A stretch of DNA of 64,000 nt, taken from contig JBBFLE010000015.1 of NCBI GenBank assembly GCA_037481695.1, forward strand, positions 1 to 64,000, written 5' to 3'. The stretch is from a bacterium (GTDB lineage Bacteria > Desulfobacterota > Desulfocorpusculales > Desulfocorpusculum). Position 1 is the first letter of the stretch; the number at the start of each line of letters is the position of its first letter. The translations under genes were made by a program, and so were the position numbers. Shown here piece after piece: positions 3,001-29,309 of the stretch. A model generated the notes under the pieces. It saw nothing but the letters and a program-made list of their open reading frames with translations, was not told the DNA's origin and ran no database searches.

Positions 3001-4170
3001 TCAGGGGCCCACAAACTCCCTGATACTCTGCGCTATGTAGCGGATCTGCTCCTCTTCCAGCTCCGGGAACATGGGAAGGGAGAGGATCTCCCTGGAGGCC
3101 TTGCTGGCCTGCGGAAAGTCTCCATTGGAGTAGTTCAAGTGCCTGTACGCCTTCAGGTTGGGAAGAGCCGTGGGGTAATGGATGCCCGTGCTCACACCCT
3201 TTTGCTGGAGATGGGCCTGGAGCTCTTCCCTCTGTGCCTTGCCCACCCTGACCACATAGAGGTGATAGACAGCCTTCACATGCTCTGCCTCCTTGGGTAG
3301 CACCAGGCCAGAGTCCTTAAGGTAGCTATTATAAAGGGAGGCGTTTTGCCTTCGGAGCTCTGTCCAGTGCTCCAGTCGGCGCAGCTTCACGTCCAGGATG
3401 GCTGCCTGGAGCCCATCCAAGCGGCTGTTGACACCTTCCAGCTCGTGGTCATACTTGTCCAGGCGGCCATGGTTGCCGAACATCCTTATTTTCTGGGCCA
3501 GGTTGCCGTCATTTGTGACCACGGCCCCCCCGTCTCCATATGCACCCAGGTTCTTGCCTGGATAGAAGCTGAAACAGCCCGCATCCCCCATGGAGCCCAC
3601 CTTCCTGCCCTTGTACAGGGCACCGTGGGCCTGGGCCGCATCCTCCACCACCAAAAGCCCGTACCTGCGGGCGATCCCCAGTATGGCATCCATGTCAGCC
3701 GGGTGGCCGTACAGGTGGACCGGGATGACGGCCTTGGGCACTGTACAGGAGGTGCAGGCTCTGGAAAAGCTGTTGCCGGGCCTGTTGCTCCTGTTGGAGC
3801 GCTGCTTCAAGAGGTCTTCCAGGCAGTTGGGATCCATGGTGTAGGTCACAGGATCGATGTCCACGAAAACCGGAAGCCCCCCTGCCATGCTCACGGCCTC
3901 GGATGTGGCAATGAAGCTGTTGGCAGGCACGAAGACCTCATCGCCTGGCCCCACACCCAGCATCTTCAGGGCCAAGAACAAAGCATCTGTGCCGTTGGCC
4001 ACCCCCACGCAGTGTTTCACTCCGCAAAAGGCTGCAAAGTTTTGCTCGAAGGCCGCCACGTACTTGCCCCCAATGAAGGCGCTTTCGGAGATGACCTGAG
4101 CCAGGCTCTGGTCTATCTCGGGCTTGATGGAAAGGTACTGGCGCTTTAGGTCAACGAGTGGGATATGCAT
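3001..4170 (-). CDS. DegT/DnrJ/EryC1/StrS-type sugar aminotransferase (WbpE-like)
   Basis: PLP-dependent enzyme (389 aa from the chosen ATG) that transfers an amino group to a keto-sugar nucleotide. Visible family features: VPLVDL-like start ([10 protein letters not shown]), the [13 protein letters not shown] phosphate-binding segment, [10 protein letters not shown] (the Asp contacting PLP) and [17 protein letters not shown] with the Schiff-base lysine. The start was placed at 4170, where GGAGAGCAAG precedes the ATG; the frame runs 42 codons further up into the acyltransferase gene. With the next two genes it forms an oxidoreductase, acetyltransferase and aminotransferase trio like WbpB/WbpD/WbpE, which builds 2,3-diamino uronic sugars such as UDP-GlcNAc3NAcA. 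Substrate assignment is by context. Confidence 0.85.
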
Positions 4171-4243
4171 CTTGCTCTCCGAAAAAGAGTTGGTGGAGCA
4201 AACCCTTGGGTCCACCAAAAAGCGTGGCCCGTGGCCAGGTTCC

Positions 4244-4708
4244 CTACAGCTTCCGCAAGAGCCGGGCTGGGTTGCCGCAGTAGATCCCCCTGACATTGAT
4301 ATCCTTGGAGACCACAGAGCCGGCCCCTATGACCGTGCCGTCACAGATCCTAACGGGCAAAATTGTGGCATTGGTTCCTATGGAGACCCTGTTGCCGATG
4401 ACCGTCTCATGCCATAGGGAGGGATCTTTGCCCGCAGGCCCACCCGAGCGGAAAAGATCATTCACAAACATGGCACCGTGGGAGATGAAACAGTCATCCC
4501 CTATGGTGACCAGTTCGCAGATGAAGGCATGGGATTGGATTCTACAGCGCTTGCCTATGCGCACCCCTCTTTGGATCTCCACAAAGGGGCCCACGAAGCT
4601 CTCGTCTCCTATCTGGCATTCATAGAGGTTCACGGGCTCCACCACGGTCACCCCGGAGCCGAAAACCACATCCCGAATCTGACTCTTGAGTAATCTGGGC
4701 TGGTTCAT
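4244..4708 (-). CDS. Hexapeptide-repeat sugar N-acetyltransferase (WbpD-like)
   Basis: A 154-residue left-handed beta-helix acyltransferase. The hexapeptide pattern is clear in [40 protein letters not shown] and [26 protein letters not shown] carries the likely catalytic His, and [10 protein letters not shown] is the common C-terminal ending. It is encoded between an oxidoreductase and a DegT aminotransferase, as in WbpB-WbpD-WbpE type clusters, so it probably acetylates the 3-amino group of a UDP-amino-uronic acid in the cytoplasm. Trimer assembly is usual for the family. Confidence 0.85.
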
Positions 4709-5932: not shown

Positions 5933-7300
5933 TCAACACGCGCCCCTGGTGGTGAAAACAGCCTTGAATGTCTTTAGAAGGATCCAAAGATCCAGCCACA
6001 AGCACTGTTTTTCCACATAGCGCAAATCCAGCCTCACCTGTTCCTCAAAGGTGGTGGTGGCCCTGCCGCAGACCTGCCACAGCCCCGTTATGCCCGGCCT
6101 GGCCTCCAGAAGCCTCCTTAGCTGCCAGCTCTTGTAATGCTCCACCTCGTAAGGAATGGGCGGTCTTGGGCCCACCAGACTCATCTCCCCCTTGAGAACA
6201 TTGAAGAGCTGGGGAAGTTCATCCAGGCTCGTGATGCGAAGGATCCTGCCCAGAGGAGTGACCCTGGGATCCCTGGCCAGTTTGAAGAAGGTCTTGCCCT
6301 TGAGATCATGGGTTTCGGCCCTGTTCTCTATGAGCCTCGTGACGTATTCCCTGTGGAGGCTCTGGTCGCAGTTGTGATACATGGTGCGAAATTTTAAGAA
6401 GGTGAAACTTTTGCCGTTTTGTCCCATCCTTGTCTGACGGAAAAGCACAGGACCTGGAGAGGTGAGCTTTATGCCAGCAGCTATGACCAACATCACAGGG
6501 CCCAGAAACACCAATGCTAAGGAGCCTCCCAACAGATCCAGGCATCTTCTTGCCAAACTGTCCATCCGGCCCCAAAAAGAAGACTTGACCCTGCCTGCAC
6601 AGGGGCTGGTGCACTCCAGAAAACCCCAATCCGCGCTGCAATCTTGAGCCCCAGAGTTTCCAAGGCCGCCCTGGCATTGGCATCCATCCGCAGCGGTCAC
6701 CTGGCCTGAGTCATTGCCCAGGAGGTTTTCCGTTAGGGTCTTGGGATATTCCAGAATACGGAAGGCCTGGCCCTGCTCAGCCAAGGCCCCAAGAGCGCAT
6801 CGCTCCATGCCCGCCAGAAACCCCCTCAGCCTCTCAAGAACCTTCTGGGCCTCTTGTTCCGTGGTATCTGGAAGCAACAAGCCCAGCTCCGCCTCCCCGT
6901 ACCAGCCCAGCACATCCGAGAGCCTTGTAGTGCGTGAGAAATTCCTCAGGGCCTGCACGAGAAAGCCCAACTCCACCCCTGAGCCCATGGCCTGCTCCAG
7001 TGAAATCAGAAGAAGAGAAAAGCAATGTCCATTGCGGTCACAGCGGCTCCTCTCCTCTCTCAGACGCTGAAGAAAGTTCTCCCTTCCGCAGACCGCCTTG
7101 GGGCTCTGGGTGTGCTGATGGCTATATGTTTTCCAGGGCAGCCGTCCCACAGCCGCCAGCCTTATGGATGAAGGAGTAGGTCTCCCAGGTCCTTCTGCGG
7201 GAGCCCGCACGCTTTCCCGGCCAAACGCATCCCCTTTTTCCGGCTCTACAAGAGGGGAGTGCACCCCGTGGGCTTTCTGGGTCATCTGGAAGCCTTCCAT
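5933..7300 (-). CDS. Degenerate GGDEF-like domain fused to an initiating sugar transferase
   Basis: The C-terminal part (about residues 245-455) is a bacterial sugar transferase that primes polysaccharide synthesis by moving a sugar-1-phosphate onto undecaprenyl phosphate. Signs are KRxxDLLG-like [10 protein letters not shown], one hydrophobic membrane segment (about 257-278), [43 protein letters not shown] and [14 protein letters not shown]. The N-terminal part (about residues 72-190) resembles a GGDEF domain but reads [19 protein letters not shown] where an active enzyme has RYGGDEF. The usual multi-helix CoA-binding-like N terminus of WbaP/WcaJ is missing. It could sense a nucleotide but should not make c-di-GMP. 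It is the upstream gene of the sugar-modifying genes that follow. Confidence 0.85.
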
Positions 7301-7479
7301 TTTCTCTTTCCTTTTGCCTACAAGACATTGCTCTCAGAGGCCTGAGCAAAGCCGCCCGTCTAAGCCCGGATCATCCATCAAGATGGGCAAGCTTGGGGCC
7401 GGGATGCATCCCCAAGCCGACTTCATGAGCTCTCACCCCTGGATCCACTGGCCCCAAGCAACACTCTTGTATGCTTTTT

Positions 7480-8130
7480 CTACACATGAATGATCCCTCT
7501 TCTTATGGCCTCCTTGGTCCATTGGGCCACGCTTCTCATATTGAGTTTCTCCATGATGTGGTACTTATGGGTCTCTACGGTCTTGGGGCTGATACAGAGG
7601 AAGTCGGCGGTTTTCTTGACAGAGTTGCCCTCTGCCAGAAGCTGGAAGACCTGCCTTTCCCTGGGGCTTAGCAGATCAAAGGGATCTGTCTGCTCCTTTC
7701 GCTCCAGTACCTCCTCCAGATGGCGGGCTATGAATTCAGGGGCGTTTTCGCTGAAGAAGGTGCCGTCTTTTTTGACCACCTGCACGGCCATATAAAGATC
7801 CGAGATGGGGCTACTTTTGAGCACGTACGCGGATATCCCGGCCTTGAGAAGATGGACCAGAAACTCCCTGTAAGAGTGCATGGTGTAGATTATGATCTTG
7901 GTCCTGGGGGACATCTTCTTGATCTGATAGGTGCATTCCACCCCGTTGAAATGGGGCATGGCCAGATCCAGTATCACTATGTCGGGATGGGTTTTCTCAA
8001 AGACCTTCAAGGCCTGGCGGGGCTCAGATACCATGCCCACGATCTCCACGTCTTCCTGCTTGCCCAGGCCTGTGGCTATTCCATGGAGAACAACCTCGTG
8101 GTCATCTATGAGCAGAACTCTTGTCTTCAT
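7480..8130 (-). CDS. NarL/FixJ-family response regulator
   Basis: A 216-aa two-domain regulator. The N-terminal receiver has the acidic pocket LLIDDHE, the phospho-acceptor Asp in DIVILDLAMP (near residue 55), the switch Thr/Ser region and LKSSP with the conserved Lys. The C-terminal LuxR-type helix-turn-helix reads LSPRERQVFQLLAEGNSVKKTADFL in two parts, followed by SPKTVETHKYHIMEKL. The sequence lies 104 nt downstream of a receiver-histidine kinase hybrid of the HisKA_3 type, which is the kinase class that pairs with NarL regulators. A role in controlling the adjacent polysaccharide genes is likely by position only. Confidence 0.88.
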   Translation of the reverse strand: MKTRVLLIDDHEVVLHGIATGLGKQEDVEIVGMVSEPRQALKVFEKTHPDIVILDLAMPHFNGVECTYQIKKMSPRTKIIIYTMHSYREFLVHLLKAGISAYVLKSSPISDLYMAVQVVKKDGTFFSENAPEFIARHLEEVLERKEQTDPFDLLSPRERQVFQLLAEGNSVKKTADFLCISPKTVETHKYHIMEKLNMRSVAQWTKEAIRRGIIHV

Positions 8131-8234
8131 TCACGCAAGCTTGCCCCCTCATTGCCGCAAACAGGCCATCTGGGAGGCCAAATCGCAAATGCTGCCGGAA
8201 TCCCTGACCTCATGCTTCCCAAAGCTCTCACTTT

Positions 8235-9359
8235 TCAAGTCCTGCCAGAAAAACCATGAGAATCATCCCCCATCCAGGCCAGGGGTAGCTCTGCCGAAAC
8301 GCACGTGCCAGAGCCCACCACAGACTCCACCCAGAGGCTCCCCCCCAAACTCTCGGCCCTCTCCCTCATGGTCAGAAGCCCCACTCCTGCTGAGGTAAGC
8401 TCCCCTGAGCTTAAAAAGCCTGCTCCATCATCTTCTATGGTGATGGATATGCTTTGGGGCCCCCGAATGACGTTTACCACAAGCTGGCCTGCCTGGGCGT
8501 GCTTCAAGACATTGGTGACCGCTTCCTGAACTATCCGGTACACCCCCAGTTCCAGCTCGGGAGAAAGCCTGCTTTCCAAGCCCCTGAAAAAGTACCTCAC
8601 ATTCATGCGGCCTTTGCCCTGGCATTCCTCCAGGAGTCTTGTGATGGCAGCCTCCAGCCCCAACTTGTCCAGTACAGGAGGCCTCAGCCCCTGGGCTATC
8701 TCACGAAGCTTCTCGATGGCCTCGGAGAGCCCCTGGGAGAAGCCCATGAGCTTCTGAGCCTGCTCCGGGGAGCCCTGGAACTCCTCCAGGAGCAGCTCGG
8801 CCTGGATCTTGAGGGTGGTCAGGGCCTGGCCTATCTCATCGTGAAGCTCGGCGCTCAAACGCTGCCTCTCCTTCTCCACTGCCAGGAGGATCTGCCTGGA
8901 GAAGGCCCTTTTTCGAAGCAGCTCCTCCCTGCTTCGACGCCTTAGCTCCCGCTCAGCCAGGGAGGAGTTGACCTTGTTCTCCAAAGCAGTGAGGGAGAAG
9001 GGCTTGGTCAGGTAGTCTGCTGCACCAAGGCGCATGGCCTCTGTGGCTGTGCTCACATCATCCCTTGCCACCCCTGTCATCATCACCACAGAGCAGAGCA
9101 TGGAGCGCTCCCCCAGCTCCTTCAAAAGCTGGGTTCCAACCCCGTCAGGAAGCTGGTAGTCTAAAAGAATAAGCTCGGGAAGACTCTGGGAGATCTGCTC
9201 CCTGGCTTCCCAAAGGCTCCTGCACTGTACCACCCGGAAACCCTTGCCCTCCAGAAAAGAGGAGAGAAGTCTCAAGATCCCCTCGTCGTCATCCACGATG
9301 AGGACCCTTGGATGTGATGTATCAGACTGGAATCTCTTCTCTAGAGAATCCTCGGTCAC
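8235..9359 (-). CDS. Receiver domain-histidine kinase hybrid (HisKA_3 type)
   Basis: Residues about 17-130 form a receiver domain (VLIVDDDEG, ILLDYQLPDG, MMTGVA, YLTKPFS). A linker helix follows, then a NarX/DegS-type dimerisation domain with the phospho-acceptor His in RLSAELHDEIGQALT. The ATPase domain has IVQEAVTNVLKHA (N box), IEDDGAGF (G1) and GVGLLTMRERAESLGG (G2). There is no membrane segment, so it is a soluble kinase that can itself receive phosphate. The start is a GTG at 9359 preceded by GAGGGGATCTCT; the frame stays open 23 codons further up to 9428. The NarL-type regulator just downstream is the probable partner. Confidence 0.85.
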   Translation of the reverse strand: MTEDSLEKRFQSDTSHPRVLIVDDDEGILRLLSSFLEGKGFRVVQCRSLWEAREQISQSLPELILLDYQLPDGVGTQLLKELGERSMLCSVVMMTGVARDDVSTATEAMRLGAADYLTKPFSLTALENKVNSSLAERELRRRSREELLRKRAFSRQILLAVEKERQRLSAELHDEIGQALTTLKIQAELLLEEFQGSPEQAQKLMGFSQGLSEAIEKLREIAQGLRPPVLDKLGLEAAITRLLEECQGKGRMNVRYFFRGLESRLSPELELGVYRIVQEAVTNVLKHAQAGQLVVNVIRGPQSISITIEDDGAGFLSSGELTSAGVGLLTMRERAESLGGSLWVESVVGSGTCVSAELPLAWMGDDSHGFSGRT

Positions 9360-16608: not shown

Positions 16609-17208
16609 GTCCCCACCTCCTTCTCTTTTCTGGAAGCCCAAGAGCTCCTGTGCTGGAAGCCCCATGGCCTCGAGGCAAAGCTCTCGGCTTCCTGAGTTCG
16701 GCCAGCATCTCTATCTAACACATCTATGATGCGAGCTCTCTGGACAAAAGCTAGGCCTGGAGCCTGGGCCCCAAAGGGCCTTTGGGAAAGCCCAGGCCCA
16801 GGCAGGAAACAAAAAAAGATCAGGATCAATCACCTTCCCAAAACCAATGCATGACAGAAATCTAATAAATTGGCACAGGAATCCAAATCTGCTTGATCCA
16901 AATATTGCAGGCTAGGAGACTACCAGATGCTGGCTAAAGGGGTCAAGGCTGCAACAAGAATTACTCGGCTTGCCCCAGTCACCAGTATTTTTCAAGAAGG
17001 GCTCCTGGCCCCTCACGGCTGGGGATAGGGGATCTGCCCTGGGCTCTTCTTGGGCCAGGGGCTCTGTATTGAAGCAAGGCTATCCATCGTATATCATCCC
17101 CGGTGAGGTGCTAAAGAGGCCCAGGAGGGAAAAAAGGATTTCCTCCAGAGCCTGACCCATGGCCCTTGGAAAGAAAGGCTGCTAGAGCCTGTGGCACAAG
17201 AGGAGCCC
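16609..17208. other. Divergent intergenic region between the TRAP operon and the UbiD operon
   Basis: About 600 nt separate the minus-strand TRAP operon from the plus-strand ubiD operon, so promoters for both should lie here. No gene with a supportable start was found. A GC-rich inverted segment near 16750-16805 (CCTGGGCCTGGGCTTTCC opposite GGCCCAGGC) could form a hairpin in the TRAP leader. A TGGCAC at 16872 lacks the GC element required for a sigma-54 promoter. I could not assign a sigma-70 promoter confidently. Confidence 0.4.
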
Positions 17209-18666
17209 ATGGCTTTTTCTAATCTCAGGGAATTCGTGGCCTGTCTTGAGAGCCGAGGAGAGCTTCTCAGGATAAAAGAGCAGGTCAGCCCTGTTTTTCA
17301 GATCACGGAGATAGCGGATCGGGTCATGAAAAGACAGGGCCCGGCCCTGATCTTTGAGAAGGTCAAGGGGGCCAACATGCCCCTGGCCATAAACCTCTTT
17401 GGCTCTCCAGGCCGCATGGCCCTGGCTTTGGGTTGCCAGAGCCTGGATGAGATAGCCGAGAGGATCCGAAGCCTCCTGAACCTCAAGATGGCACGGGGAT
17501 TCTGGGGCAAGCTCATGGCCGTGCTGCCCCGCCTCAAGGAGCTCTCGGCTTTCTCTCCCAAGCTTCTTAGTTCCGGAGCCTGCCAGGAGGTGGTATTGGA
17601 GGGCACCCAGGCTGATCTCTCCATTCTTCCTGTGTTGACCTGCTGGCCCCAGGATGCAGGCCCCTTCATAACCCTTCCCATGGTCATCACCAGGGATCCT
17701 GAAACCGGTCTACAAAACATGGGCATGTACAGGATGCAGGTCTTTGATTCCAGGACCACGGGCATGCACTGGCACCTGCACAAGAGCGGGGCCATGCACT
17801 TTGCCAAGAGAGCAGCCCGTGGGGAGCGCATCGAGGTGGCCGTGGCCCTGGGAGGTCCTCCCGCAGCCATGTACGCAGCCACGGCCCCCCTTCCTGAGAA
17901 TCTGGAGGAGTTCGCCTTTGCAGGTTTTCTTCAGGGCAGACCCCTGGAGTTGGTCAAGGCCAAGAGCGTGGATCTGGAGGTGCCGGCACAGGCAGAGATC
18001 GTGCTGGAGGGATATGTGGATCCATCGGAACCGCTTAGGACAGAAGGGCCTTTTGGCGACCACACGGGCTTCTATTCCCTTGCCGAGCCCTATCCCGTGT
18101 TCCACCTCCAGACCATGACCATGAGGCGGGAGCCCCTTTATCCCACCACCATAGTGGGCGTGCCGCCCAAGGAGGACTACTGGCTGGGCTATGCCACGGA
18201 AAGGATCTTCCTGCCCCTGATCCAGATGCTTCTTCCCGAGGTGGTGGATCTTCATATGCCCATGGAGGGAGTGTTCCACAATCTGGTTTTCGTATCCATT
18301 CGGAAGCAATATCCGGGGCACGCTTACAAGGTCATGCACGCCCTTTGGGGGCAGGGACAGATGATGTTGGCCAAGGTCATAGTGGTGGTGGACGAGGAGG
18401 TGGATGTCCAGAATCCTCAAGAGGCCTGGTGGGCGGCCCTCAACAACCTGGATCCTGGAAGGGATGTGATCATAACCAAGGGTCCCTTGGATGTGCTGGA
18501 TCATTCCTCTTCCCTTGCGGCTTTCGGCTCCAAGATGGGCCTGGACGGAACTCGCAAAGGCCCGGCAGAAGGAGCCTCGAGAAAGTGGCCCGAGAAGATT
18601 CAGATGAGTGAGGAGGTAAAGGCCCAGGTGGATGCGATCTGGAGCAGACTGGGCCTGGATTTCTGA
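17209..18666 (+). CDS. UbiD-family decarboxylase (menaquinone/ubiquinone type)
   Basis: A 485-aa prenylated-FMN-dependent decarboxylase. Family marks include LREFVACLESRGELLRIKE at the start, NMGMYRMQVFD, MHWHLHKSGAMHF, EGPFGDHTGFYSL with the catalytic acid region, and the late KVIVVVDEEVDVQN segment. AGAGGAG lies three bases before the chosen ATG; a GTG at 17191 would add six residues. It is followed two bases later by a UbiA-type prenyltransferase gene. Such pairs act on a prenylated aromatic acid in quinone synthesis; in deltaproteobacteria that usually means the futalosine route (MqnL with MqnP). No UbiX/MqnM gene is in the window. Confidence 0.88.
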   Translation: MAFSNLREFVACLESRGELLRIKEQVSPVFQITEIADRVMKRQGPALIFEKVKGANMPLAINLFGSPGRMALALGCQSLDEIAERIRSLLNLKMARGFWGKLMAVLPRLKELSAFSPKLLSSGACQEVVLEGTQADLSILPVLTCWPQDAGPFITLPMVITRDPETGLQNMGMYRMQVFDSRTTGMHWHLHKSGAMHFAKRAARGERIEVAVALGGPPAAMYAATAPLPENLEEFAFAGFLQGRPLELVKAKSVDLEVPAQAEIVLEGYVDPSEPLRTEGPFGDHTGFYSLAEPYPVFHLQTMTMRREPLYPTTIVGVPPKEDYWLGYATERIFLPLIQMLLPEVVDLHMPMEGVFHNLVFVSIRKQYPGHAYKVMHALWGQGQMMLAKVIVVVDEEVDVQNPQEAWWAALNNLDPGRDVIITKGPLDVLDHSSSLAAFGSKMGLDGTRKGPAEGASRKWPEKIQMSEEVKAQVDAIWSRLGLDF

Positions 18667-18668
18667 GG

Positions 18669-19547
18669 ATGCCCCAGGCAGCAGGCCACATGGTGGGAAA
18701 GCTTTGGGAGTATGGGAGGATGATAAGGTTCTCCCACTCCATCTTTCTGCTGCCCTTTGCCCTCTCGGCCCTGGTCCTGGCCCCCACAGAGGAGCTGGAG
18801 CTGGGCAAACTCTTTTGGATATTGGCCGCCCTTGTGTCAGCCAGGAGCGCGGCCATGGGCTTCAACAGGATAGCAGACAGAAGCCTGGATCTGGCCAATC
18901 CCAGAACCTCAGCCAGGGCCCTGCCAGCAGGCAGGATCACTCTGGGGGAGGCTTGGGCCTTTGTGCTCATATCAGGGGCGATCTTTTTGTTCTCAGCCCT
19001 GATGCTGAATCCCTTGGCAGCAATTCTCTCGCCCTTTGCCCTTGGATTCATTTTGGCTTACTCCTTTACCAAGAGGTTCACCCTTCTGTCTCACCTCTGG
19101 CTGGGCCTGGGCACTGCCATGGCACCAGCCGGGGTTTGGGTGGCCCTCACAGGATCTCTTGGCTGGGAAATACTCATCCTGGTGGGCTCTGTAGCTCTTT
19201 GGGTGGCAGGCTTTGACGTGCTTTACGCATGCCAGGACGTGGAGTTTGACAGGAAATGGGGGCTCTTTTCCATTCCGGCCAGGATGGGGGTTGGAAGGGC
19301 CCTTTGGATAGCCAGGGGTTTGCACGGCCTTTGCTTCCTGGGCTTCTTTTGGGTGGGGCAGATCTTCTCCCTGGGTGCCATATACCTGGCAGGCATGTGT
19401 TTGGTGGGGATCCTCTTTGTCCTGGAGCACCTGCTGGTCTCGGAAAAGGACCTCTCACGGATAAATGACGCCTTTTTCAAGGTAAATGGCCTGGTGAGCG
19501 TGGTATTCTTTTTGGCAGTTCTGGCCGACACCTGGTTCAAGAAATGA
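18669..19547 (+). CDS. UbiA-family prenyltransferase (MqnP/4-hydroxybenzoate type)
   Basis: A 292-aa integral membrane enzyme with about eight hydrophobic helices. The two Asp-rich motifs that bind the magnesium-prenyl diphosphate are visible as GFNRIADRSLDLANPRTS (near residue 70) and DVEFDRKWGLFSIPARMG (near residue 185). It attaches a polyprenyl chain to an aromatic acid. Location directly behind ubiD suggests the two consecutive quinone-synthesis steps. The start is either 18669 (TGAGG touching the ATG) or the ATG at 18690. Its last bases ATGA overlap the next gene. Confidence 0.88.
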   Translation: MPQAAGHMVGKLWEYGRMIRFSHSIFLLPFALSALVLAPTEELELGKLFWILAALVSARSAAMGFNRIADRSLDLANPRTSARALPAGRITLGEAWAFVLISGAIFLFSALMLNPLAAILSPFALGFILAYSFTKRFTLLSHLWLGLGTAMAPAGVWVALTGSLGWEILILVGSVALWVAGFDVLYACQDVEFDRKWGLFSIPARMGVGRALWIARGLHGLCFLGFFWVGQIFSLGAIYLAGMCLVGILFVLEHLLVSEKDLSRINDAFFKVNGLVSVVFFLAVLADTWFKK

Positions 19548-24157: not shown

Positions 24158-25501
24158 TCACCTTGAGGATGCTATCTCTGAGGCCACCTCTTGGGTGGCC
24201 TGGATTATCTTTTGCACATCCTCATGGGTGTGGGCCGTTGATATGGCGCCTCCTCCATGCATCACAAAGACCCCATGGTTCATCATCCTTATCCTGAACT
24301 CCTGGTCCAGGAGCTCCACATCCGTGAAGCTCTGGATATCTCCCGGGTTTCTGATGGTCATGGATGGGGCTTTGGGGAAATAAAGCCCGCAGAGAGATCC
24401 CATGCCGCTTGCCTTGGCGCAAATTCCCCTTTCCTCCAGAGCCGCCACCATGGAAGCCCTCACCCTCTGGCCTTTTTGATCTATGGCCGGGTAAATGCTG
24501 TCCTGGTTTTCCTTGAGATGTTCCACCACCCTGTAGCCCACTATCATGCTCAAGGGTGAGCATGAAAAAGTGCCGCCTCCCACCACCACGGCCTGCCCTT
24601 TGGGACGGGCTATGGTGGGATCGCACAGGGCCATCACATCTGACCTGCCCGCTATGACCCCGAGGTTGGTGCCGCCTCCCACCACCTTTCCCAGGGTGGC
24701 CAGATCAGGAACTATTCCGTAAAATCCCTGGGCGCCCTTAAGAGAAAGCCTAAAACCCGTTATGATCTCGTCAAAAATCAGTATGGCACCTCTTTTGCGG
24801 GTCTCCTCCCTGAGCATCTCCAGGTAAGGCTTCTGGGCAGCCAGGAAACCTCCGGCCCCCACCAAAGGCTCAACTATTATGCCTGCCAGATCATCCCCCA
24901 CCTCATGAATGATCCTCAGGGTCCCTTCCAAATCATTGAAAGGCACCGCCCTTACGTAGCGCTCCATTCCAGGCACCAATCCAGCACTCTCCGGGTCTTG
25001 GTAAGGAGGCTTTACGGCCCAAAGCAGCTCGCTGTTGGCTCCATGCCAACCTCCCTCCATCTTCAGGATGGTATTCCTGCGGGTAAAACCCCTGGCCAGG
25101 CGCACAGCATACATGGTCACCTCTGTTCCCGAGACCCCGAAGACCACCTTCTCTGCGCAAGGAACGATCTGTTGAATGAGTTCTGCAAAGCGCACCTGGT
25201 GCTCATGAACTATTCCCCAGTGGATGCCTACCCTGGCTGCCTCCTCCAGAGCATCCTGGGCCACCTGGGACTTGTGTCCCAGGATCAGGGCAAAGTGCCC
25301 CATCCACAGATCCACGTATTCGTTGCCATCCACATCCCATATGCGGGATCCCCTGGCCTCCTCCACGAAAAAGGGATGTGGAGCTATGAAACGATACCTG
25401 TGGCTCACCCCCCCTGGCATGAGCCTCCTGGCCTTCTCGTAGAGCTCCCTGGAACGTCTGGTCCTCTCCAGGTACAACTCGATGTGGTCCTGCTTTGCCA
25501 T
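24158..25501 (-). CDS. Class III PLP-dependent aminotransferase (GSA-aminomutase-like)
   Basis: A 447-aa fold-type I enzyme. PGGVSHRYRF at the start, FGVSGTEVTMYAVRLARG (phosphate-binding), EPLVGAGGF, LIFDEIITGFRLSLKGAQGF and LATLGKVVGGGTNLG (with the PLP-binding Lys in LGK) follow the order of glutamate-1-semialdehyde aminomutase relatives. The last segment normally separates aminomutases from other class III aminotransferases, and here it does not settle the issue. GGAGAACTCAAGT precedes the ATG. The substrate is unknown. It is adjacent to the TraB-like gene on the same strand (41 nt between), so co-expression is possible. Confidence 0.8.
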   Translation of the reverse strand: MAKQDHIELYLERTRRSRELYEKARRLMPGGVSHRYRFIAPHPFFVEEARGSRIWDVDGNEYVDLWMGHFALILGHKSQVAQDALEEAARVGIHWGIVHEHQVRFAELIQQIVPCAEKVVFGVSGTEVTMYAVRLARGFTRRNTILKMEGGWHGANSELLWAVKPPYQDPESAGLVPGMERYVRAVPFNDLEGTLRIIHEVGDDLAGIIVEPLVGAGGFLAAQKPYLEMLREETRKRGAILIFDEIITGFRLSLKGAQGFYGIVPDLATLGKVVGGGTNLGVIAGRSDVMALCDPTIARPKGQAVVVGGGTFSCSPLSMIVGYRVVEHLKENQDSIYPAIDQKGQRVRASMVAALEERGICAKASGMGSLCGLYFPKAPSMTIRNPGDIQSFTDVELLDQEFRIRMMNHGVFVMHGGGAISTAHTHEDVQKIIQATQEVASEIASSR

Positions 25502-25542: not shown

Positions 25543-27588
25543 TCAAACTCCCAGGATATAGTCCTTGGCAATCAATCTCTTGTCCCGTCCTGAGAGCACG
25601 TGGAATCCCCTGAGCCTCTTGAGGGTTGCCGAGGAGAACTGCCCCAGGGGCAAATAGACTATCTTGAGCCCCATGCGGGCAGCCAGGGTGTGGAACCAAA
25701 AACGGGGGGGCCTGGCAGCCACATAAACCACATAAGGCTCCAGGGTATAATCCAGGGCAGCCATCAACAGGACCTCTGGTTTTGAGCCCAGCACCTGGTA
25801 CACTGGATCCTTCCAGATGTCGCCCATGCGCCTCGGGGGATAGCTCATCACAAACCCACCGTACTCGCATCGGCTTATTCCAGGCCCCACCATCTTGAGC
25901 CCCAGGGGCGTGGCGTAGAAGGCCATGTCCGACTCCTGTTCATGCTCGCCATACCATGTCATGCAGTAGGGGTACTTGCGGCCATCCTCGTCTGGGTCGA
26001 AAATCACCACCACTGCCCCCACGCCTCCTCTGACCCTCCTGGTTTCCCTCACATAGATCCTTCCTTCATGCCAGTTGCGAAGTGTCTCTCTGAGATCTAT
26101 GCCGTCCAGCAGGGAACTGGTAAAAGGCTCCACCCTGGATCTTTCCTCAGAAAGGAGCCTCACGCCCTTTTGCCTTAGGTACCCACCGAAACGCTCCACC
26201 AACAGGTCCTCGGGTGGATAGGAGCAGAGGGCCTCTCCGTCCAAGGCCTCGGCCCACTGCCCTGGATGTGTTTCCTTTTTTCTCTGCCTCACGGGAAAGG
26301 CCTGAGGTCTTTTTTTCCTGGGCACTCTGGGCCTGATGCGAAGGCGTCTCATGCCCAACCACAGATCCTCCCCCCTTATCCTGGTGGTGGGCAGATCAGT
26401 GGAATTTTCCCCCTGCCAGGGATATGTGCGTCCCAGCTCCCATACCTCGTACGCAAAGTCCTCGTCCACGCAAGCCTTGGCCGAGGCCACCCACTGGAAG
26501 AAATCCGGCAGGAGCCTTCCCTCCAAAAGAGCGTAGTTGCGAGAGAACCTCATCAGCCCATGCACCTGCCAGGGCTGAAGGCTCTCACCGGTTCTGTAAC
26601 GATACATCCTGGCCGCCCTCTGGAGCCATCTCCAAAGGAGCTTCTGACGATCCATGGGGAGCTTGTGGGCATGGGCAGGCGGCTGGGGCCCATCATCCTC
26701 CAGAAGCTCCCTCAAACCGGCCCCAGCAGCCGGGCTCTCTTGAAGATCTCTGTGGCATCGCCTGGCACACCACTGGGCAGCATTCCAGCAGGCCCTGGCC
26801 CTGTCCTGCATCATGGAGGCTCCCCCATGCAAGAGGCGCAGCCTGCCCTGGGCAGAGCTCGGTGGCTCAAGAGCGTTGTCCTGGGGTTCTGGAGGAAGCC
26901 CCTTTCGTCTCATCTCGTAAATGGTGTGAAACAGGGGAGGCTCGGTCATTATCTCCACCATGGAGTCCGGATGCAGGTGGAAAAGCTGGACTCCCTTTCT
27001 TTGCACCCTGTCCATGGGTTCGGGCAGTTTGCTCCTTAGATCCTCCAGGATCCTTTGGGCATGAGCCATTCCGCAGACAAAAAAAACCTGCCCTCCCTGC
27101 CCAAGAAGCCTTTGAAGCCTCAAGGCCATGCCCTGCTCGCGAAGCCTATCCCAAGGGTGAAGCTCTTGGAGGCCGTGGGCCACAACAGCCTGGTAAAATT
27201 CCCTGTGTCCGAGACGAAATGCCGCATAAGAATCAGGAAGTTTTTCATGCCAGAGCATGGGAGAGTCTATGTCCACGTCCACACAACATGCTGTGCAGCC
27301 ATGCTCCATGGCCCAGCGAAGGGCCTCCACCAGAGGATCAGCAGGACAAATGGGAAGATAAAGGGGCTCCCCCCTGGAGGACTCGTAAAGCAACACGCTC
27401 ACCTGGGGAAGGCGCTGCACTGCTCTTAGCACATGGGATTCCAGGGAGGCTGGCAGCTCCACTGCCACGATCTGGGGGCGGATCTCCTCCAGGGCCAGTC
27501 TCACTGCCTCGGCAAACTCCAGCCGCTCATGCAGCACTGGCATGATATGGAGCCTTTCGTGCTGGAGGGTAAACCAGAATCCATTCAT
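25543..27588 (-). CDS. Large protein with TraB/DUF5682-like N terminus and unknown C terminus
   Basis: A 681-aa protein. Residues 10-180 resemble the TraB/PrgY/DUF5682 group: HERLHIMPVLHERLEF, QIVAVELPASLESHVL and VFFVCGMAHAQRI in the spacing of EAN-like families, where Glu and His residues are conserved. Residues 280-684 match nothing I know; they include a Trp/Arg-rich basic stretch (IRPRVPRKKRPQ) and a late conserved-looking segment with FDPDEDGRKYPYC and YGEHEQESDMAFY. There is no signal peptide or membrane helix. It precedes no VWA protein, yet its upstream neighbour is a MoxR-type ATPase (55 nt away), as DUF5682 proteins often have. Start is the ATG at 27588; a GTG lies three codons upstream. 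Confidence 0.6.
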   Translation of the reverse strand: MNGFWFTLQHERLHIMPVLHERLEFAEAVRLALEEIRPQIVAVELPASLESHVLRAVQRLPQVSVLLYESSRGEPLYLPICPADPLVEALRWAMEHGCTACCVDVDIDSPMLWHEKLPDSYAAFRLGHREFYQAVVAHGLQELHPWDRLREQGMALRLQRLLGQGGQVFFVCGMAHAQRILEDLRSKLPEPMDRVQRKGVQLFHLHPDSMVEIMTEPPLFHTIYEMRRKGLPPEPQDNALEPPSSAQGRLRLLHGGASMMQDRARACWNAAQWCARRCHRDLQESPAAGAGLRELLEDDGPQPPAHAHKLPMDRQKLLWRWLQRAARMYRYRTGESLQPWQVHGLMRFSRNYALLEGRLLPDFFQWVASAKACVDEDFAYEVWELGRTYPWQGENSTDLPTTRIRGEDLWLGMRRLRIRPRVPRKKRPQAFPVRQRKKETHPGQWAEALDGEALCSYPPEDLLVERFGGYLRQKGVRLLSEERSRVEPFTSSLLDGIDLRETLRNWHEGRIYVRETRRVRGGVGAVVVIFDPDEDGRKYPYCMTWYGEHEQESDMAFYATPLGLKMVGPGISRCEYGGFVMSYPPRRMGDIWKDPVYQVLGSKPEVLLMAALDYTLEPYVVYVAARPPRFWFHTLAARMGLKIVYLPLGQFSSATLKRLRGFHVLSGRDKRLIAKDYILGV

Positions 27589-27643
27589 GGCGCACACTGC
27601 CGGGCTGGAGATCCCAGGAAAGCCCGGGCTTTTCTGATGAACC

Positions 27644-28489
27644 TTACAACTTCAAATACTGTGTGGCCTCATCCCCCAGGATCATGCGCATCCCCTCCAC
27701 CACTGCCGAGATAGCATCCACAGAGTTGCTCTGGCGCAACAACTTCACGGCATATCTGGCCACGTTTATGCCGTCTCGCACTGTATAGCGTTCCTCTGCC
27801 TCGTGGGCCTTCTGCAAGAAATCAACCACATATCGCAGGATCTCCTCCTGGCAAAAGGGCAGGTTCTCCCTGAGTATGCGAAGCTCCTCCTCCCTCTGGG
27901 GGAAGTCCACCATTATCTGGGGTTGGAGCCTGGAATGAATGTACTCTGGGAGCTCATAGGTGCTGGCATCCTCGTTGAGGGTCGCCACAAAACGAAAATC
28001 CTTGTGAGCCCTTATCTTGAGGCCCGTGACTATGGACTCGATGTATCTTCTGTGATCCAGAAGAGGAGCCAGGGAAGCCCAGGCCTTCTCGCTCATGCGA
28101 TTGCCTTCATCCAGTACGCAGACTCCGCCCCTTATCATGGCTGTCACCAGGGGACTGGCCACGTATCTGATCTTGGCCTCCGGGGATATGACAGGTGTTA
28201 TGAGCAGATCTTCGGGCCGGGTGTCCATGGTGGCCTGATATATGTAAACTTCCCTTCCCAGGGAGCGGCCCGCTGCATAGGCCAGGGTGGTCTTGCCCAC
28301 CCCAGGCTTTCCCACCAGCCTGGGGTTCATGGGTATGTCCTGGGGCTCCACCACGAGCCAGGCGGCCAGAAGCTGTTTCCAGCATTCTTGCTGCCCCACC
28401 CAAGCCATGGGAAGCTCGTCGGGATGCACCAGATAAAGCTCAACCCCCTCCATGAGGATCCTTCTGTCAGAGACCTGCTTGTAAGACAT
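27644..28489 (-). CDS. MoxR-like AAA+ ATPase
   Basis: A 281-aa ATPase with Walker A GKPGVGKTTLAYAAG near residue 62, Walker B GGVCVLDEGNRMS near residue 125, sensor 1 FRFVATLNEDA and the arginine-finger region IHSRLQPQIMVDFP. MoxR proteins act as chaperones that remodel or insert cofactors into partner complexes, usually with a von Willebrand-A protein. None is visible here; the partner is probably the TraB-like protein downstream. It sits 13 nt after the kinase-BON gene, giving a compact three-gene unit. Confidence 0.8.
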   Translation of the reverse strand: MSYKQVSDRRILMEGVELYLVHPDELPMAWVGQQECWKQLLAAWLVVEPQDIPMNPRLVGKPGVGKTTLAYAAGRSLGREVYIYQATMDTRPEDLLITPVISPEAKIRYVASPLVTAMIRGGVCVLDEGNRMSEKAWASLAPLLDHRRYIESIVTGLKIRAHKDFRFVATLNEDASTYELPEYIHSRLQPQIMVDFPQREEELRILRENLPFCQEEILRYVVDFLQKAHEAEERYTVRDGINVARYAVKLLRQSNSVDAISAVVEGMRMILGDEATQYLKL

Positions 28490-28502
28490 GCTGCCCTGCC
28501 CT

Positions 28503-29309
28503 TCAGGGTCTTAGCTTGTTTACGATCCTCTGAACACCCTTGACCCTTCTCACCACGTTCTCTATGAGGGGTTTGTCCTTGGGCTCAGGAAGCTTGCCGC
28601 TTAGGGTCACCACCCCCTCTTCGTCGCATCTGATATCCACACAGCTGGGACAGGAGATCTCCGGGTGCTTGATCAAGCTCTCCCGGATGGCCTTGACCAG
28701 GCGGTAACGCTGGAGCATCCCTCTGGCCCCCTGGGCCCGCTCGGCCCAGTTGATCTGGCGAAAAGCCTGAACCAGCATCTTGGCCGCCGTGGTTTTATCT
28801 ATGACTCCGGTATTTAGCACCAGGTGGTACTGAAGGGGATCGGCCCAGTCAACTCCGAAGGCCTGCTTCACGAAAAGAGCCCTTTCCTCATCCACCTCCT
28901 GGATCCGCCTTCGGGCCTTCCTTTCCGAGTCCCCAAAGCGCTCCATTACGGCCTTTACCCTGCTTTCCACTGGAGCATCTATTCTCACATGGAAAGCACT
29001 GGAGAGATCCCTCAGGATGGCCTGCCCCCCTCTGCCCACTATGACAACGTTGTCGGCCTCGGCCGCATCGCAGATGGCCTCACAAAGAAAACTCAAGAAC
29101 TCCTTGGGCCTGTCTCTGAAAAGCACGTCGAACAAGGACAGCCCCTTCTCATCCAGGACCTCCAGCTCGGCCCTCAAGTAATTCCTCTGCCTGGCCATCC
29201 TCAAGAGCTCCTCCCGATCGAAGAAACGATACTTCAACCTCCTGGCCGCCTCTTTTCCTATGGCAGCCCCGTTGCTCCCCAGGGTCCTGGATATGGTTAT
29301 TACGGCCAC
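28503..29309 (-). CDS. Cytidylate-kinase-like protein fused to a C-terminal BON domain
   Basis: The start is a GTG at 29309 directly after AGGAGGTGAGCCC; the frame is open another 27 codons but has no comparable site. Residues 1-195 resemble the cytidylate-kinase-like family: VITISRTLGSNGAAIGKEAA (variant P-loop), FDREEL, VVIVGRGGQAIL and RVKAVMERFGDSERKARRRI, with conserved DWADP. Residues 201-268 form a BON-like domain (LVKAIRESLIKHPEIS, GVVTLSGKLPEPKDK, VVRRVKGVQRIVNKL). BON domains usually bind lipids or proteins in the envelope, so the fusion to a cytoplasmic kinase is unusual. Two Cys in SCPSC may matter. It heads the unit with the MoxR ATPase. Confidence 0.75.
   Translation of the reverse strand: MAVITISRTLGSNGAAIGKEAARRLKYRFFDREELLRMARQRNYLRAELEVLDEKGLSLFDVLFRDRPKEFLSFLCEAICDAAEADNVVIVGRGGQAILRDLSSAFHVRIDAPVESRVKAVMERFGDSERKARRRIQEVDEERALFVKQAFGVDWADPLQYHLVLNTGVIDKTTAAKMLVQAFRQINWAERAQGARGMLQRYRLVKAIRESLIKHPEISCPSCVDIRCDEEGVVTLSGKLPEPKDKPLIENVVRRVKGVQRIVNKLRP

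Follow-up and report, generated by a model that had tools for sequence, protein, structure and literature searches.

A MoxR-type ATPase gene and its obligate partner, a gene for a large protein without a detectable VWA domain

Gene layout and linkage of the pair

Two neighbouring genes, encoding a MoxR-type AAA+ ATPase (MOX) and a larger protein (DUF), were characterized in a stretch of 64,000 nucleotides (positions 1 to 64,000 of contig JBBFLE010000015.1, assembly GCA_037481695.1, from a Desulfocorpusculum genome), which we refer to as the window. An earlier sequence-only reading of the window had joined these two genes with a third, encoding a cytidylate-kinase-like protein with a BON domain (KIN), and had proposed the three as an undescribed MoxR-based system. 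The three minus-strand open reading frames are present where that reading placed them (Table 1), and its gene labels are backed by Pfam, with matches to DUF5682 at the N terminus of DUF, to AAA_5 in MOX, and to Cytidylate_kin2 and BON in KIN. KIN lies upstream of MOX, from which it is separated by 13 nucleotides, and MOX is separated by 46 nucleotides from an alternative GTG start of DUF at position 27597. This GTG, the start used in the list of open reading frames, gives a protein of 684 residues and defines the residue numbering used here, but the ATG start (681 residues) agrees better with the nearest relatives. Since aligned relatives share 33-67% identity with DUF and 58-85% with MOX, both are true genes rather than chance reading frames.

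Table 1. Positions of the genes and of the protein regions discussed in the text, in window coordinates.
Feature	Positions	Strand	Basis
DUF (681 aa from ATG)	25543-27588	minus	Open reading frame; partner protein of MOX
DUF, N-terminal TraB/TIKI-like domain (predicted), residues 14-231	26905-27558	minus	Predicted-model matches and hhalign to YehM
DUF, basic segment, residues 410-445	26263-26370	minus	Lys/Arg excess in 14 aligned proteins
DUF, C-terminal conserved domain, residues 455-684	25546-26235	minus	Conservation across 130 sequences
MOX, MoxR-type AAA+ ATPase, 281 aa	27644-28489	minus	Open reading frame and Pfam AAA_5
KIN, cytidylate-kinase-like with BON, 295 aa	28503-29390	minus	Pfam Cytidylate_kin2 and BON; neighbour only

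A scan of a species-level genome collection gave 569 pattern-matched stretches, 552 of which encode DUF relatives. Counts of loci refer to the best 80, some of which duplicate one genome through two collections (for example L024/L037 and L025/L038). The check on conserved linkage that had been proposed for the three genes came out in favour of two of them: MOX lies on the same strand as DUF and upstream of it in 74 of the 80 loci, at a distance of 300 nucleotides or less in 64, and the two genes are often spaced by 2-4 nucleotides or overlap by 4. Two loci without MOX (L066 and L114) start inside or at DUF at the edge of a contig, and for the other four, in which DUF is internal, MOX was found elsewhere in the genome. 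A KIN homologue, on the other hand, lies near the pair in a single locus (L037), which comes from the same genome as L024 and thus from the window's own family; the remaining member of that family, L025, has none near its pair. The trio was therefore rejected as a system, KIN being only a local neighbour, while the proposal of an undescribed MoxR-based system survives in the form of the pair.

At most 22 of the 81 neighbourhoods (the 80 loci and the window) share any one gene cluster outside the MOX/DUF footprint, the larger clusters being overlapping frames of the pair or such frames mixed with others. Inspection by eye of 35 further stretches, encoding more distant relatives, revealed no constant third gene in the portions listed. 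Defence-type or nucleic-acid genes do not recur beside the pair in the neighbourhoods examined. A ferrochelatase-like cluster (identified by eye), found upstream of the pair in 19 loci, is taken as shared synteny of related Geomonas-type genomes.

Co-occurrence of the two genes was analysed in three sets of genomes. Among 59 relatives, the window's genome included, DUF is present in 14 and MOX (at E 1e-30) in the identical 14, with one copy of each. In the searches of 395 genomes of the phylum and of 199 Acidobacteriota genomes, scoring was confined to a few top candidates from each genome. DUF was found in 62 of the 395, and all 62 carry MOX at 332-541 bits; the two genes are directly adjacent in 52, lie 6-10 kb apart in 3 and are on different contigs in 7. 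MOX was found in 64 of the 395, the two genomes without DUF giving weak scores (G130, 171 bits; G353, 141 bits). In the Acidobacteriota, the C-terminal part of DUF was detected in 8 genomes, all with MOX at 424 bits or more, and the 191 genomes lacking DUF yielded one weak MOX (G464, 161 bits). These three genomes have scores far below those of the pairs and probably carry other MoxR proteins. With the weak genomes counted against the association and phylogeny ignored, Fisher tests gave p <1e-69 for the phylum and <1e-12 for the Acidobacteriota, values that are too extreme, since genomes of shared ancestry do not count as independent. Tallied by genus within the phylum, MOX is present in 39 of 39 genera with DUF versus 2 of 207 others. 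The two proteins have also diverged in parallel, with distance matrices of 113 pairs correlated at r 0.92 (none of 999 permutations as high), a value to which species history contributes. MOX and DUF are thus an obligate pair in the genomes examined.

Sequence and predicted structure of the two proteins

MOX matches Pfam AAA_5 at E 6.7e-20 and also exceeds the cut-off of AAA_3; its best NCBIfam match, GvpN, is far under the cut-off of that family. The nearest solved chains by profile are Midasin, whose score is a sum over several AAA modules, and NorQ and CbbQ, at E 1e-7 to 5e-7. Eight aligned sequences (the window protein and seven relatives) share invariant GxPGxGKTT and DE (127-128) motifs, which we take to be Walker A and Walker B, respectively, together with invariant N172 and R238. 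MOX therefore has the Walker A, Walker B and sensor residues of a MoxR AAA+ core.

The N terminus of DUF, described as TraB-like by the sequence-only reading, gave a marginal match to DUF5682 (PF18934; 31.3 bits, cut-off 26) over residues 32-108 only, and 6 of 14 DUF family members match this family at E 0.01. The match is restricted to positions 1-80 of a 727-position profile, which E. coli YehM matches from 1 to 695. With hhalign, the N terminus aligns to YehM residues 8-211 (E 6e-5, probability 65%). The predicted DUF model was matched to a ciliate complex IV chain (Z 10.4, rmsd 5.1, 172 residues aligned), ChaN (Z 8.4, rmsd 4.6, 143 aligned), HopBA1 (Z 8.2, rmsd 3.4, 142 aligned), the Pasteurella toxin (Z 7.3) and EreC (Z 7.1, rmsd 4.9, 163 aligned), although Z scores of 7-10 are in the range that the structural-alignment tool flags as possible by chance. 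Passages of PMC6254334 place ChaN, HopBA1, the Pasteurella toxin and an Ere-family protein in the TIKI superfamily. Taken from model and alignment, the N-terminal domain appears to be TraB/TIKI-like and distantly related to the start of YehM. Orthology with DUF5682/YehM beyond this domain was rejected, the C terminus being unrelated (hhalign probability 0.1%), and no full YehM-type protein was seen in the 59 relatives, in which a PF18934 search matched only DUF of the window's family (3 genomes).

Three residues of the N-terminal domain are kept in most of 130 distinct DUF sequences: H23 in 122, E47 in 124 and H179 in 123. They can be likened, by order only, to residues of the TIKI enzyme RRSP, which employs two His and two Glu according to the part of PMC6254334 that treats it; the fourth residue in DUF is perhaps E27. 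The His/Glu/His site is altered in 6 of the 130 sequences (L036, L122, L154, L155, L157 and L162), with all three residues changed in four of the six, and the invariant C-terminal positions are retained. A TIKI-like activity, if there is any, would thus not be the common denominator of the family.

The basic segment that precedes the C-terminal domain contains 12-17 Lys/Arg versus 2-4 Asp/Glu per 36-37 residues in all 14 aligned proteins, and is mostly of low pLDDT in the predicted models. Within the C-terminal domain, all 130 sequences share the same residue at 24 of 60 tabulated positions, which had been pre-chosen for conservation in smaller alignments. These invariant positions include C458, S459, E463, D464, E468, R507, W548, E551, E555, S556, D557, R590, E608 and Y617. 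This conservation suggests that the C-terminal domain, the most constrained part of DUF, is its core.

Profile searches and structure prediction matched the C-terminal region to no family or solved fold tried, in agreement with its earlier description as unrecognised. From about residue 310 onwards (about 370 residues), the window protein matched no Pfam family, and the same region of 14 relatives gave three weak Pfam matches, each from a single member (best E 0.0041). A search of PHROG gave one match, again from a single member (E 0.053), no PDB sequence scored better than E 0.14, and Foldseek returned no PDB fold at E 0.001 for the full-length or the C-terminal model. The full-length model has a mean pLDDT of 76.4 and a pTM of 0.66; the C-terminal model has a pLDDT of 76.9 (59-65 in the other four models) and a pTM of 0.58. 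With VIA-align, the C-terminal model was matched best to a short helical stretch (Z 4.8, rmsd 2.3, 54 aligned). As predictions, the DUF models are too weak for claiming a new fold. A strand module gave weak rows (Z 2.2-2.9), among them ones to Argonaute, reverse transcriptase and the N domain of creatinase, proteins that share an RNase H-like topology, and at Z 2.9 or less these hints from a predicted model are too weak for use. A PD-(D/E)xK fold was considered since EcoT38I ranked first in Foldseek (E 0.63), but no such invariant lysine was seen.

VWA partners, candidate clients and mobility

The absence of a VWA partner beside the genes, as remarked on in the sequence-only reading, was borne out for the CoxE type: no such gene lies on the window's contig (other VWA families were not searched), and the two CoxE-type VWA genes of the genome are on other contigs. 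DUF itself has no VWA match in Pfam (window protein and 14 family members), and a MIDAS-like DxSxS motif is absent from the window protein and occurs, anywhere in the sequence, in 4 of 130 rows. Three genomes carry the pair without a VWA_CoxE match at E 0.001: G029 (100% complete, one contig), G048 (98%) and G005 (84%). Since the complete genome G029 has the pair and no CoxE-type VWA gene, a CoxE-type VWA partner is not required by the pair, though an unlinked VWA protein of another type may exist.

We also compared the occurrence of three candidate families in the 59 relatives, with p values uncorrected for three tests. XdhC is present in 10 of 14 pair genomes versus 18 of 45 others (Fisher p 0.065), AFOR_N in 14 of 14 versus 35 of 45 (p 0.098) and VWA_CoxE in 11 of 14 versus 31 of 45 (p 0.74). 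None of the three tracks the pair in these genomes or provides a convincing link. XdhC adjoins MOX in G011 and G083, two genomes of one genus (by eye in G083), and an XdhC-type gene, for maturation of molybdoenzymes, lies directly downstream of a MOX that is unlinked from DUF in two loci of one genus (L120, 10728-11780; L159, 1297-2412). A RACo-like gene adjoins MOX in G024. In three small genomes of one family, a gene for a sigma-54 activator follows the pair (L036, 11312-12325, by Pfam; L154, 7879-8865, and L155, 7646-8635, by eye).

The pair was found in records labelled as Desulfobacterota-type lineages, Acidobacteria, Armatimonadetes, Nitrospirota and Chlamydiota. The distribution looks mainly vertical: among the 59 relatives, each of the 14 families represented by two or more genomes carries DUF in all of those genomes or in none. 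One family, f33, contains both kinds once the larger set is considered (DUF absent from G034; present in G207, G251, G292 and G348). The chlamydial record, plasmid pS13 of Neochlamydia sp. S13, suggests transfer. It carries an intact pair, 5 nucleotides apart, with 62% (MOX) and 37% (DUF) identity to the window proteins, and was the sole record with a match to either protein among 72,556 plasmid records at the limits used. An intact pair on a plasmid suggests that the two genes can move together and be maintained as one unit. When seven neighbouring Neochlamydia genes were compared with 167 sequences, the only match was one weak match of QueG, in L095. A gene for a TtcA-family tRNA thiolation protein lies immediately upstream of the pS13 pair (L168, 5413-6159) and was unmatched near other pairs.

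Phage genes lie beside the pair in two IMG/VR contigs. In L122, the pair is directly followed by a phage integrase gene and, further on, by a sub-threshold portal match (3429-4583 and 6237-8423); this pair probably belongs to host DNA flanking a prophage that inserted next to DUF. L123, in which DUF lies at the contig edge and the adjoining genes are on the opposite strand, may resemble it. No match to the pair was found in 50,697 phage records, and PADLOC gave no specific match.

Proposed mechanism and alternatives

We found no account of the MOX-DUF pair in the open-access literature, subscription papers being outside the scope of the search. The closest framework is provided by other MoxR ATPases. 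Parts of PMC3893208 describe chaperone-like maturation roles of MoxR proteins and their co-occurrence with a VWA cofactor, and these ATPases usually work with VWA partners, as stated there and in portions of PMC13036017. The latter portions describe how, in NorQD, a finger of NorD enters the ring pore and ring activity remodels the NorD linker, as needed for metal insertion. The label 'chaperone-remodelling' that the sequence-only reading gave to the locus is inferred from the MoxR class. NorQ-NorD and CbbQ-CbbO (the CGN subfamily of MoxR) resemble MOX-DUF in joining a MoxR-type ring ATPase to one dedicated larger partner; DUF differs in having no detectable VWA domain, and no gene for a recognised target enzyme accompanies the pair. 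More generally, the VWA domain with its MIDAS, which marks MoxR-VWA systems, was not detected in DUF.

A YehLMPQ-type operon is marked by MoxR, DUF5682, CoxE-type VWA and SWIM genes occurring together. E. coli YehL-YehM-YehP-YehQ likewise has a MoxR gene directly upstream of a gene with a related N-terminal domain (YehM). The remainder of YehM, however, shows no relation to the C terminus of DUF, YehL is only 25% identical to MOX over 159 residues, no YehP-like CoxE-type VWA gene lies beside the pair, and only MOX recurs widely with DUF. The DUF N-terminal domain resembles the TIKI/TraB/ChaN/erythromycin esterase superfamily in predicted fold and in the order of His and Glu, but DUF adds a large C-terminal domain and the pairing with an ATPase, and some lineages have an altered site. 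McrB-McrC likewise combines a ring ATPase with a single non-VWA partner. DUF, in contrast, has no McrC-like Pfam match, and MOX appears to lack the signature typical of McrB.

We favour, with a probability of about one half, a model in which MOX and DUF are the subunits of a single machine that uses ATP to remodel or activate proteins, with DUF replacing the VWA partner. We infer that MOX forms an AAA+ ring on which DUF would dock in place of the usual VWA partner, in the manner of NorD, and that ATP hydrolysis by the ring would remodel the conformation of DUF. The C-terminal domain would bind a client and remodel or activate it (compare the action of NorD/NorQ on nitric oxide reductase), while the TIKI-like N-terminal domain would be accessory, with a possible role in recognition or hydrolysis in most lineages, and dispensable as a catalyst. 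The model draws on the obligate co-occurrence, the linkage, the parallel divergence of the two genes, the conservation, the intact plasmid-borne pair and the published roles of MoxR proteins and NorQ. Several observations weigh against this model. Conservation of the C-terminal domain is of active-site grade, which a plain adaptor would not need. Docking as in NorQD is not simply transferable, because DUF has no VWA match and the window protein no DxSxS motif. The co-occurrence of the three candidate families decided nothing in the 59 relatives, and no neighbouring gene in the 81 neighbourhoods points to a client.

The C-terminal conservation pattern makes it quite possible that DUF is instead an enzyme gated by the ring. 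The C-terminal domain would then be a new enzyme that MOX powers, loads or gates in the way of McrB/McrC, an explanation that we consider the main rival, tentative and less probable than a remodelling machine. It accounts for charged and polar residues that are invariant in 130 of 130 sequences and for the basic segment ahead of the domain, and has a precedent in McrB, which the relevant sections of PMC9976466 describe as structurally close to NorQ/CbbQ, with a partner, McrC, unrelated to VWA proteins. The strand-module rows to Argonaute, reverse transcriptase and creatinase would fit as well, but all are far below meaning. RNase H-like nucleases have an acidic residue where their fourth strand ends, whereas no invariant acidic residue was seen there in DUF, and the defence-type or nucleic-acid neighbours that might accompany such an enzyme do not recur. 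A narrower proposal, that the domain founds an enzyme family with a fold unseen in solved structures, gated by a dedicated MoxR ring without a VWA partner, is doubtful and marginally less probable still. An ATP-dependent hydrolase, in which the MOX ring would feed a TIKI-like domain with peptidase or esterase activity, is unlikely: the two-His/two-Glu site that parts of PMC6254334 report for RRSP has a possible counterpart in the widely kept H23, E47 and H179, but the alteration of that site in some sequences, with the 24 C-terminal positions invariant, argues against hydrolysis as the common activity. An anti-phage or conflict function, akin to the MoxR-VWA ternary systems, is the least probable of these explanations. 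MoxR conflict systems are described in parts of PMC7159879, and the Neochlamydia plasmid and the phage genes adjoining two IMG/VR pairs are consistent with such a function; the negative PADLOC and phage-record searches, the single copy per genome and the all-or-none families, despite the mixed family f33, weigh against it.

The pair represents, in our reading, a MoxR system whose partner is of a new type, with a real chance of novelty in the C-terminal domain. If the model of a remodelling machine holds, the replacement of the VWA partner by an extremely conserved, unrelated protein in an obligate pair would mean that the MoxR principle does not depend on a VWA domain. The pair would also offer a small two-gene system for asking what a ring does to its partner. 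In the annotated pS13 record, MOX is an 'AAA family ATPase' and DUF merely a 'hypothetical protein', even though relatives are encoded in the 552 stretches of the species-level collection.

Two further groups of genes were noted in the window. A class III aminotransferase gene (24158-25501), resembling glutamate-1-semialdehyde aminotransferase by eye, lies on the same strand, 41 nucleotides downstream of DUF. At 17191-19547, translations read by eye revealed UbiD-like and UbiA-like genes in tandem, which perhaps belong to a quinone pathway.

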